A DNA stretch of 64,000 bases, from positions 496,001 to 560,000 of the forward strand of contig NZ_JAUCBM010000001.1 in assembly GCF_030362795.1 (NCBI RefSeq), written 5' to 3'. The translations under genes and the position numbers were made by a program. The first letter of the stretch is position 1. Each line of letters starts with the position of its first letter. Under the pieces are notes generated by a model that was given only the letters and a program-made list of their open reading frames with translations, did not search any database and was not told the DNA's origin. The stretch comes from Pseudochrobactrum kiredjianiae (lineage in GTDB: Bacteria > Pseudomonadota > Alphaproteobacteria > Rhizobiales > Rhizobiaceae). Below are positions 14,304 through 63,239 of this stretch, in pieces.

Positions 14304-14487
14304 AATGCTACCCCTTCTTTATTTGATGGGGAAAAATATAGATCAGCAAAGCACATAGGGAAGTGGTGCGTCACATTTATTTGAAGATAGAATAAATGAA
14401 TCGGCACAGATACAGTTAATTCTGACAGGAAGAAGAGCCGTTATTTCCGTAAAATAATAATTAAATCAATATTATAAAGAGTTGAAC
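14304..14487. other. AT-rich gap upstream of gcd
   Basis: Holds the gcd promoter region; no gene or clear dyad seen apart from the terminator hairpin at its left end (14488-14519). Confidence 0.4.
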
Positions 14488-14519
14488 AAAGACGCCGCCC
14501 CGTTGAGGGCGGCGTCTTT
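14488..14519 (-). terminator. Terminator of the copZ-copA transcript
   Basis: Thirteen-base perfect stem AAAGACGCCGCCC / GGGCGGCGTCTTT, loop CGTTGA, 35 bases downstream of the copA stop on the minus strand. Confidence 0.75.
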
Positions 14520-14553
14520 AGTTAAAAGCATCAGCCTTGGGAGGATGGAGCTT

Positions 14554-17067
14554 TTATAAACGTGTGCTGGTGAAGCTGCGCAGGCGCAATGCATTGGTCA
14601 GCACGAAAATGCTCGACAGTGCCATGGCTGCCGCAGCCAGTACCGGCGAGAGCAGGATGCCGTAAAACGGATAGAGCAGACCTGCCGCAACCGGAATGAG
14701 TGCGGTATTGTAGGAAAACGCCCAGAACAGGTTCTGACGGATATTGCGGATTGTCGCTTTAGACAAAGCAATGGCATCCACAACAGCAGTCAGATCACCG
14801 CTCATCAGCACCACATCGGCGCTTTCAATGGCGATATCCGTGCCGGTGCCGACAGCCACACCCACATCAGCCGCAGCCAGTGCCGGAGCATCATTGATAC
14901 CGTCCCCGACAAAGATGATCTTGCGGTCGGAACCTGCAAGACGCTTCAGTGCTTCCACTTTTCCATCCGGCAGAACTTCCGCAGACACTTCATCAATGTT
15001 GAGTTCTTTGGCGATAGCATTGGCCACGACTTTACTGTCACCGGTAATCATCGCCACTTTCAGGCCAAGCTTATGCAGGGCATCAATGGTGGCTTTGGTT
15101 GTCGGTTTTAGTTCATCAGCCACGGAGAAGGCTGCGACCAGCACACTGCCCCGCGCCATATAGAGCACGGATTGCGCTTTGGCCGTCATTAGTGCTGCGG
15201 CTTCTGCACCGGTGGCAACATCAATGCCGAGCTTTTTCATGAAGCGCTCTGCACCGACATGCACGGCCTGACCATCAACCATACCGCTGACACCAAAGCC
15301 CGGTACGGCTTCAAATTCCTTCACTTCCGGCTGTTGCAGATCTTTATCTTCTGCTGCCTGAACAATCGCTGTGGCAATTGGATGTTCCGAGCGGGACTCC
15401 AATGCTGCTGCCAAAGCCAGCATTTCATCATCCTGATTGCCGGCAAAGCTGAAGAACTGCGAGAGAACAGGTTTGCCGATCGTCAGTGTGCCGGTTTTGT
15501 CGAAAGCGATAATATCGGCATCACGCAGACTTTGCAGAGCATCACCACGACGGAACAAGACGCCCATTTCCGCACCGCGACCGGTACCAACCATGATCGA
15601 AGTTGGCGTAGCCAGACCCATGGCACAAGGACAGGCGATAATCAGCACGGCGATGGCATTGGCCAGCGCAAAGGTGAAGGCCGGTTCTGGGCCGAAAATA
15701 AACCAGATCAGGAACGTGACAAAGGCAGCCAGCATCACCGCAGGCACAAACCATGTTGTCACTTTGTCGATCAGGTTCTGGATCGGCAGTTTGTCGGCCT
15801 GCGCATCTTCAACCATGCGGATAATCTGTGAGATCACCATATCCGAGCCGACTTTGGTGGCGCGATAGGTGAAAGCACCAGTCTTATTGACCGTACCACC
15901 GACAACTGTATCGCCGACATTTTTAGTCGCTGGCACCGGCTCGCCGGTAATCATGGATTCATCAATATAGGACGTACCTTCAGTGATCTCGCCGTCGACC
16001 GGTACTTTCTCACCCGGACGCACCTGAACAAGATCGCCTGCACGCACATCTTCCAGCGGAATATCTTGTGCCACACCATCACGCACCACACGGGCAGTTT
16101 TGGCCTGTAGTCCGAGCAGATGGGCAATGGCATGGGATGTCCGGCCTTTGGCACGGGCTTCCATCCAGCGGCCGATCAGGATCAGCGTGACGATAACTGC
16201 TGCGGCTTCATAATAGACATTGACGGTTTGTGCAGGCAGGACGGCAGGCATGAAAGTTGCAACAACCGAGAAGCCCCATGCTGCCAATGTACCAACGGCC
16301 ACAAGCGAGTTCATATCCGGTCCGCCGCGCAGCAAAGCGGGGATGCCGATACGGAAAAAGCGCAAGCCAGGGCCGAATAGCACAAGCGTGGTCAGGATAA
16401 ACTGGAGATACCAGCTGTTCTGCATGCCGATGGTGCTATCAATGACATGGTGCAGCGAAGGGATCAGATGCGAGCCCATCTCAGTGAGAAAAACCGGCAG
16501 TGCCAGCGCACCGGCAATCAGGACATCCCGTTTGAGAATTTTAATCTCGGCGTCATTCTTCTCTGCGCGACGCTCTGCTCCGCTGGCAGGAGCAGCTATT
16601 GCGGCAGGTTGCGCCGGATAACCGCTCTTGGTTACAATATCAGTCAGCATTTGCGGCGTAACAGACGGATCACTGAGTGTGATGCTGGCGCGTTTGGTTA
16701 TCAGATTGACGGAGGCTGTCGCAACACCGGCTGAGGCCTGCAAGGCTTTTTCCACGCGCCCGACACAGGACGCGCAGGTCATGCCATCCACATCCAGCAC
16801 CACCTGCGATGCCGGCTGCGGAATATGGGCGGTATAACCGGCTTTTTTAATGGCTTCTGCGGCAAGATTTGCATCAGGCTTGTCATCAAAGCGCACGGTT
16901 GCCTGCTGGGTTGCCAGATTGACAGAGGCGCTGTTGACACCGGGCAAAGCAAGCAATGCTTTTTCCACGCGTCCGACACAGGATGCACAGGTCATGCCGT
17001 CAATTTCGAGCGTAACAACGGGCAGGCCGGAGCGTATCTGCGTGGGATTGCTATGTTTGGTCATCAT
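14554..17067 (-). CDS. copA: Copper-exporting P1B-type ATPase
   Basis: 837-residue inner-membrane Cu(I) export pump. Two N-terminal heavy-metal domains carry [15 protein letters not shown] (residues about 23-38 and 94-108). The membrane metal site is [12 protein letters not shown], the phosphorylated aspartate is in DKTGTLTIG, and [16 protein letters not shown] is the hinge motif; the CPC plus the HP motif (SEHPIA) define the copper class. It lies downstream of copZ in the same direction, separated by a palindromic repeat, and the shared promoter at 17515-17545 is a CueR site. Copper resistance is therefore firmly supported. Confidence 0.95.
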
Positions 17068-62246: not shown

Positions 62247-62414
62247 TTAGCCTAAAGCTGCAATCAGGCTTGTTGAGATTGCCCAGATAAGAAATGCGGC
62301 GGGAACAGCCAGACCGGCAAGAAAGATCCCGAGAAAAACAAATGCCGCTTCATCTGTGCGGTTTTTCATCTGATCGGCAGGCTTTTGCCAAAGAGCGGGT
62401 ACACCATCATACAT
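62247..62414 (-). CDS. 55-residue membrane protein, unknown
   Basis: A short gene read on the minus strand: MYDGVPALWQKPADQMKNRT, then one or two closely packed hydrophobic stretches (about residues 24-53: AAFVFLGIFLAGLAVPAAFL and the following WAISTSLIAALG), stop TAA. The site GGAGGAGACCTGCA is nearly perfect, nine bases before ATG, better than most genes here, and its codon use matches neighbours while the surroundings are AT-rich. No family recognised. It stands alone between a terminator and an AT-rich gap. Confidence 0.75.
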   Translation of the reverse strand: MYDGVPALWQKPADQMKNRTDEAAFVFLGIFLAGLAVPAAFLIWAISTSLIAALG

Positions 62415-62870
62415 TGCAGGTCTCCTCCGATATAGTCTTAATGAATTTATTATGATCCGAATGTGAAATACTGCAATACTGAATATAAAAAGATTTGAAT
62501 TGCACGAAAATGATGGTATTAGCTATCTTGTTGTGAGTTTGAATTTGAATTTTGAAATATTTTCTACAGAATCTGATTGATTTTTTTAATTTAAGTCTAT
62601 GATATTTATAAATTTTTCTTTTATACTGTAGATTCTGAAGTATCTGTAATTTCAATAAATGCTGAATGTCTCGAAAAATATGAGATTTCTGTATGGATTG
62701 TCGTTGAGATAACCCGACAAATTTAAGCAAAATCGGTGTCTGTTGAGTCGGGCAAATCACACGCACTTTGCTGCAGCGCACATGACTTCTTTGATCCCAT
62801 GATCGTGATGGAATCCATAAGACGGATGGCTGCCTTGCAATGCTGCATAACTGTTATGCATTATTGTTTA
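62415..62870. other. AT-rich gap, no convincing gene
   Basis: A 124-codon frame on the minus strand (62407-62781) has lysine/isoleucine-rich composition from AT-rich DNA and no ribosome binding site, so I reject it. The stretch ends with the promoter of the small RNA. Confidence 0.5.
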
Positions 62871-62899
62871 TTGTCGGTTTTTTTATCTGCCGTTATATG
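62871..62899 (+). promoter_or_regulatory. Promoter of the small RNA
   Basis: -35 TTGTCG (62871-62876) and -10 TATATG (62894-62899) with a 17-base spacer. This predicts transcription from about 62906, exactly where the first hairpin begins. Confidence 0.55.
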
Positions 62900-62905
62900 T
62901 CTGTC

Positions 62906-63022
62906 CATCGGGTTCGTTCTCCTCCTCCCAATTGAGCCCGATGACGGAATGCGGCACTCCTCCTCCCAGCCGCATCCATGATCAGGCCGCGCATCTCCTC
63001 CCCCGCGCGGCCTTTTTCTTTT
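62906..63022 (+). ncRNA. Small RNA with three anti-Shine-Dalgarno hairpin loops
   Basis: Hairpin 1: CATCGGG (62906-62912) / CCCGATG (62937-62943). Hairpin 2: ATGCGGC (62949-62955) / GCCGCAT (62969-62975). Hairpin 3, the terminator: AGGCCGCGC (62984-62992) / GCGCGGCCT (63005-63013) followed by TTTTCTTTT. Loops 1 and 2 both carry the identical 11-mer CTCCTCCTCCC; loop 3 carries CTCCTCCCCC. This is the architecture of the alphaproteobacterial alpha-r14 / cuckoo (CcsR-like) sRNAs, which pair with ribosome binding sites of target mRNAs. About 115 nt. No open frame explains it. Confidence 0.85.
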
Positions 63023-63239
63023 CTCCCGAGACTTTTTTGATATTGCGGTGCTCTCTGTCTTTCAGACGAAAGCATATTCAATTTTGTTTGAATTTTTGCT
63101 GAGCCCTGTTTGATTTTGGTCAATGCAGTGTAAGAGTGCACTGCCTGATCTGATGTTGCTGACAGAGCTTTGTTTGCGATCTGACGGTCAAATCTGTTTA
63201 CTCCCTGCCATTTGTTCATTGCCTATGAAGGATATAAAA

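Follow-up and report, generated by a model that had tools for sequence, protein, structure and literature searches.

An ar14-family small RNA with three anti-Shine-Dalgarno loops in Pseudochrobactrum kiredjianiae, probably of the NfeR1 type

The ar14 RNA NfeR1, also known as Smr14C2, is the described small RNA with which the locus reported here is chiefly compared. Anti-Shine-Dalgarno loop motifs are also carried by the CcsR RNAs. NfeR1 of S. meliloti uses three redundant anti-Shine-Dalgarno loops to silence ntrB and transporter mRNAs; it silences a target reporter, which a three-loop mutant does not, and it is counted as Hfq-independent (PMC10746234, in the portions available). According to the same portions, NfeR1 was characterised in 2017 and again in 2023, and LsrB binds its promoter at TGCA-N6-GCAT, at −72 to −60. 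SmelA075 and SmelA099, described from the same species in 2011, are hairpin RNAs that carry CCUCCUCCC in three or four loops (PMC3927594, excerpted text), and we infer that both belong to ar14. In Rhodobacter sphaeroides, processing of a DUF1127 transcript yields the CcsR RNA (CcaF1-CcsR), and the DUF1127 protein CcaF1 binds RNA and takes part in CcsR maturation (PMC10253847, excerpted text). CcsR1-4 with CcaF1, the CcsR-like or "cuckoo" RNAs, resemble the RNA described here as stress-linked alphaproteobacterial small RNAs in the text available on them. AbcR1 and AbcR2 (ar15, RF02345) have similar, non-identical anti-Shine-Dalgarno motifs, and some of their members are under LsrB or VtlR, as far as the excerpted sources go. 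They form a separate family, with two matches over cut-off elsewhere in the source genome.

The window analysed here is a 64-kb stretch of the P. kiredjianiae genome, in which an earlier reading made from the letters alone (the sequence-only reading) had placed a small RNA and proposed a cmscan check of its family. A scan of the whole window with Rfam models returned four matches, namely three tRNAs and ar14 (RF02344). The ar14 match reached 76.9 bits against a gathering score of 58.8 and covered all 123 model positions. Our own model, R1, scored the same interval at 74.1 bits, with the RNA itself among its 40 training sequences. A weak R1 match at 14487-14564 on the minus strand (19.4 bits) was taken as chance. 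The features of the locus are collected in Table 1.

Table 1. Features of the ar14 locus and its surroundings (positions within the window).
Feature	Position	Strand	Basis and remarks
55-aa hydrophobic protein frame	62247-62414	-	No Pfam match; ribosome-binding site GGAGGAG complementary to the loops
Putative LsrB/VtlR activator site	62836-62860	+	-70 to -46 from start 62906; motif basis; conserved in genus
Promoter-like pair TTGTCG - 17 nt - TATATG	62871-62876 and 62894-62899	+	Sequence; inside conserved block
ar14 small RNA gene	62903-63018	+	Rfam RF02344 match; predicted transcript ~62906-63022
Stem-loop 1	62906-62943	+	Loop exposes CTCCTCCTCCC at 62919-62929; fold, covariation
Stem-loop 2	62946-62977	+	Loop exposes CTCCTCCTCCC at 62957-62967; fold, covariation
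Stem-loop 3, probable intrinsic terminator	62984-63013	+	Loop exposes CTCCTCCCCC at 62995-63004; fold, covariation
T-rich terminator tail TTTTCTTTT	63014-63022	+	Directly 3' of the third stem; sequence

Folding of the predicted transcript alone gave a minimum free energy of −49 kcal/mol, whereas shuffles averaged −28.5 (z −7.0) and none of 200 reached that value; it predicted three hairpins with one anti-Shine-Dalgarno motif per loop. Sequence and fold thus confirm what the sequence-only reading had described, three stem-loops with exposed CUCCUCC and two identical 11-mers. On both strands of the 64-kb window, the 11-mer CTCCTCCTCCC had no further copy beyond loops 1 and 2. These two loops match the family motif CCUCCUCCC exactly; the third, UCUCCUCCC, agrees in 8 of 9 letters, so that all three motifs are present but the last is one letter off, in which it differs from NfeR1. 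The third hairpin had also been read as a Rho-independent terminator, and a T-rich tail does follow it directly, yet a generic terminator scan listed none at the RNA; the scan rule demands a loop of 3-8 nt, and the third loop has 12 nt. The promoter-like pair with its 17-nt spacing had likewise been predicted and is present, but it is weaker than implied. By our own count its hexamers share 8 of 12 positions with the E. coli consensus, used here as a yardstick, and the generic promoter scan, with its 9/12-letter rule, did not list it. The results of both generic scans were set aside, these rules for hexamers and loop length being unsuited to this RNA. A transcript start near 62906 is plausible.

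Covariation was measured on 40 of 90 ar14 loci, with near-duplicates and weak matches left out. Changes on both sides that preserve pairing occurred in at least one homologue at 22 of the 24 consensus pairs; absence of stem covariation was the finding that the sequence-only reading had named as speaking against it. Cells changed on both sides numbered 218, against 65.8 in shuffles and 24-62 with the partner slid, and paired cells made up 90.6% versus 68.8% in shuffles. The covariation score was 0.632 compared with 0.245 (shuffled) and 0.055-0.157 (partners slid), numbers to be read with the consensus structure having been derived from the same alignment and the homologues having been found with a structure-scoring model, which somewhat favours covariation; the margin is large nonetheless. 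Each of the four helices counted (one each for hairpins 1 and 3, two for hairpin 2) showed covariation. None of the 40 homologues departed from the core of loop 1, CTCCTCCC, and loops 2 and 3 were almost as constant. Together, the Rfam score above the cut-off, the covariation and the matches across the genus bear out the membership in ar14 that had been inferred from sequence. The Pseudochrobactrum RNA is a further member of an already described family and not a novel kind of molecule.

These data also weigh on two readings in which the locus would hold no regulatory RNA. A long-loop terminator with CT-rich loops arising by chance would account for the terminator-like third stem, CT-rich stretches being common, but the covariation in all helices refutes it unless the alignment is wrong. 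With the Rfam family score, the invariance of the loops and the conservation of the RNA together with its promoter block between genes also against it, we give this explanation practically no weight. That the locus encodes a small protein is hardly more credible. Overlapping frames of 81 aa (62736-62981, +) and 108 aa (62893-63219, −) are listed, but such frames are mechanical; moreover, a difference within the genus preserves a base pair (GCGGCA/AGCCGC vs. GCGGTA/AACCGC), and most invariant positions sit in loops.

More serious, if still improbable, is a role as a sponge or decoy that would titrate another RNA or RNA-binding DUF1127 proteins instead of mRNAs. A loop present in three redundant copies would fit such a role, as would the RNA binding of CcaF1 and its part in CcsR maturation, and DUF1127 genes lie at the genome's two other ar14-like loci. 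Against it stands the S. meliloti reporter, silenced by NfeR1 and not by its three-loop mutant. We consider it very probable that the locus is an ar14 RNA acting by anti-Shine-Dalgarno pairing. A stand-alone regulatory RNA of roughly 115 nt, of the NfeR1 type of ar14, would be produced from the locus. In its three hairpins the 16S anti-Shine-Dalgarno sequence stands unpaired three times, as folding and covariation show. By pairing with ribosome-binding sites rich in purines (GGAGGAG or near variants), the loops would keep ribosomes from entering a set of mRNAs and would reduce translation, perhaps also lowering mRNA levels, as shown for NfeR1 in S. meliloti. Action in trans on ribosome-binding sites is thus proposed for the window RNA by analogy.

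The promoter region holds two overlapping halves of a putative activator site. The LsrB-like half, TGCAATGCTGCAT at 62836-62848 (−70 to −58 from 62906), reads TGCA-N5-GCAT, with a spacer of 5, and lies close to where LsrB binds the NfeR1 promoter. The VtlR-like half, GCATAACTGTTAT at 62845-62857 (−61 to −49), fits GCAT-N3-TG-N3-T exactly, the VtlR motif given in the text available of PMC7486931. A near-perfect palindrome, TGCATAACTGTTATGCA, occupies 62844-62860 within the site. Among 90 ar14 loci, 13 had the VtlR pattern at −66 to −48 from the match start, where shuffles predict 0.28, and 18 had the looser motif GCA[AT]NNCTG, picked after viewing the promoters, where 0.48 are expected; seven loci of each count are close genus members. 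The VtlR pattern itself is of low information, with eight plus-strand matches in the 64 kb including the one at the RNA. A figure of 13/13 for "NfeR1-like" promoters was discounted as circular, the promoters having been selected after viewing, and the counts over 90 loci are used in its place. From motif and position, we lean towards the view that a LysR-type activator of the LsrB/VtlR kind, bound about 60 bases upstream, switches the RNA on. One ar15 copy in the same genome is preceded by a site of this kind at a distance of about 60 bases. Elsewhere in the genome, TGCATAGCTGCTATGCA at L222:1501-1517 (G000:C8:112324-112340) differs from the palindrome by two mismatches and lies about 180 bases upstream of a frame that by eye looks peroxiredoxin-like.

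The RNA resembles NfeR1 in its three hairpins with anti-Shine-Dalgarno loops, in its own (here predicted) promoter and in the placement of the LsrB-type motif. The likeness of the promoters is one of quoted motifs, the S. meliloti NfeR1 sequence standing outside our promoter alignment. Unlike the NfeR1 promoter, that of the window RNA has no TGC-N11-GCA, the NtrC pattern, at −101 to −116, where an NtrC site is not evident in Agrobacterium or Brucella either (PMC10746234, in the portions available). Matches to the pattern occur only at −75 and −62. Because the palindrome also fits TGC-N11-GCA, overlapping control at this point is possible.

The locus is conserved within the genus. The PALP/CBS protein encoded upstream has a counterpart with 95% identity in Pseudochrobactrum asaccharolyticum DSM 25619 and counterparts with 83-93% identity in five further genomes, and the RNA is present at the loci of all six relatives. 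Across these, identity of the RNA ranges from 95.5 to 100% over a compared length of 113 nt (112 nt in two alignment rows of one relative), with three fully identical; the comparison has 12 rows, apparently the six genomes twice, as values repeat. Identity is 90.7-97.4% in the promoter block (62830-62905) and 75.6-79.1% in the upstream 330 bases, over 193-334 alignable columns. The downstream flank could be aligned in two of the six relatives, at 81-87%. Each of seven genus genomes, including the source genome, has two ar14 matches over cut-off. One of the relatives, a 1.1-Mb contig labelled Bacillus subtilis SK6B4 (L006), carries the Pseudochrobactrum locus with the same RNA and 93% protein identity; its assembly is probably mixed or wrongly labelled. 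Of 121 genomes sampled from the host family, 116 had an ar14 match at E ≤ 0.001 and 108 one over cut-off. The corresponding numbers were 63 and 29 of 199 in the order sample and 9 and 1 of 190 in the class sample, the last being the source genome itself; the three samples overlap (source genome and a few others), and the filters used lose some weak matches. A literature search at the level of titles and beginnings of abstracts, with the cuckoo RNA paper (PMC4615179) and the 2017 NfeR1 paper outside its coverage, found no description of an ar14 RNA in Pseudochrobactrum. For this genus, the locus adds a well-supported member of the family.

The sequence-only reading had suggested looking for other copies in the genome, and two further ar14-like loci were found. 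One is over cut-off (C2:310951-311072, 75 bits) and the other is weak (C5:93949-94046, 31.8 bits). Both lie behind stop codons of DUF1127 genes (Pfam PF06568), at distances of 11 and 71 bases, respectively, whereas no DUF1127-like end precedes the window copy within 250 bases. Such an end was found within 250 bases upstream in 31 of 90 ar14 loci. The architecture that had been likened to ar14, cuckoo and CcsR RNAs alike is that of ar14, but the CcsR arrangement differs, since CcsR, in the text available, comes from a DUF1127 transcript and the window copy is stand-alone; the C2 and C5 loci of the same genome are the ones behind DUF1127 genes. The family thus takes two forms within one genome: one copy stands alone with a putative activator box, and the others follow DUF1127 genes. 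A weak "ar14" match at C3:134677 (24.6 bits) was rejected, as ar15 fits there at 50 bits and the locus is better read as an ar15 (AbcR) RNA. Weak ar14-like hairpins with degenerate loops were seen at G000:C5:93949-94046 (L003) and in the pairs L078/L081, L076/L082 and L077/L083. They lie near a DUF1127 gene in L003, L081, L082 and L083 and are in tandem in three genus members.

The neighbours of the window copy are the 55-aa protein, the PALP/CBS protein and a HAD hydrolase. Synteny was rejected as proof of orthology to NfeR1, since in 1.5-kb flanks of 90 loci the PALP/CBS and 55-aa proteins were found only in the genus; the sole PALP match outside it (39%) was downstream of the RNA in L172. 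Orthology to NfeR1 would rest on promoter type.

Candidate targets were sought by complementarity to the loops. The pattern GGAGGAG-N4-9-ATG occurred at 40 sites in the genome compared with 11 for a reversed control pattern, a count of perfect 7-mers before ATG to which shorter matches could add targets. The sequence-only reading had suggested that the RNA would be a global translational regulator; that claim is unproven, and ntrB, of all NfeR1 targets the best studied, has no strong complement here. The target set comprised 30 of the 40 sites, of which some are inside genes, two are an identical site and several lead to frames shorter than 50 aa. Pfam matched 15 of 20 frames submitted from these loci, including an SBP_bac_5 transport protein, a BPD_transp_1 permease, two aminotransferases, a thiolase, a DHDPS-family enzyme and a cold-shock protein. 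Loop-leader duplexes ranged from −12.8 to −24.9 kcal/mol, strong pairing being expected of 30 loci chosen for GGAGGAG, and the energies, which ignore mRNA structure, yield candidates only. Candidate targets by complementarity, each of them unproven, include the peptide-binding transport protein, the transport permease, the aminotransferases, the thiolase and the adjacent 55-aa protein. The 55-aa frame is present at 7 of 7 genus loci, divergent to the RNA, and its GGAGGAG in 6 of 7, which makes its gene a possible target.

For ntrB, here the frame before ntrC and assigned without a family check, the duplexes in the source genome reached −5.1 to −8.4 kcal/mol, and the likely leader holds only AGGA in 7 of 7 genus genomes. 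Because the genus ntrB lacks a strongly complementary ribosome-binding site, a further difference from NfeR1, it is probably not a target here, and the NtrBC loop of S. meliloti is unlikely to apply in this genus. Outside rhizobia, the NtrBC-NfeR1 loop is not to be assumed. Only tentatively do we suggest a rewired target set, in which the Pseudochrobactrum RNA would have kept the LysR-type site, lost ntrB and come to act on other messages, including that of the divergent 55-aa membrane protein.

Related RNAs were also found in viral sequences. IMG/VR was scanned for the distinctive loop pair, giving 68 stretches, and R1 scored at least 58 bits in 43 of them (44 matches), the next best match reaching 49.3 bits. 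By tblastn, a relative of the phage helicase of L097 was beside the RNA in 41 of these 43, and a relative of phrog_10477 as well in 23 of the 41, the stretches examined often being short. In L097 and L103, on which the PHROGs names were tested, the RNA lies between the helicase and phrog_10477 genes on the opposite strand. The two stretches without the helicase, L105 and L125, may represent host flanks. Near-identity is common among the 41 (clusters of 17 and 19), which leaves far fewer independent cases. Rfam ar14 was over cut-off in 7 of the 19 stretches (of 68) submitted, namely L085, L097, L103, L113, L138, L105 and L125; these include all five of the 41 helicase-adjacent contigs that were submitted. 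In the remaining 12, our own folding gave one or two such hairpins. Two results speak against a wide distribution of such copies: the ar14-like RNA matched no record of a phage collection by blastn, and ar14 was absent at seven phrog_10477 loci of 6 of 121 host-family genomes within the stretches examined. A search of titles and beginnings of abstracts, with the cuckoo RNA paper outside its coverage, found no description of a phage-borne ar14. The 41 contigs (L085, L097, L103, L113, L138 and 36 others) would carry, judging from gene content and RNA score, a phage-borne copy of a host translation-silencing RNA beside a helicase. This raises the question of why an RNA that masks ribosome-binding sites should lie in a phage replication region.

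Two other arrangements of such loops were seen in these stretches. By eye, two anti-Shine-Dalgarno hairpins in L091, L093, L118, L123, L130 and L133 run straight into a GGAG-rich ribosome-binding site with its start codon. Such a leader might use its loops to mask the site that it carries itself, but no frame of at least 90 aa begins at that start codon in L091, which counts against a self-masking leader. In L090 (2639-2771, −), and similarly in L094, L099 and L110, two CTCCTCCTCCC hairpins lie within a 401-aa frame that appears ATPase-like by eye.
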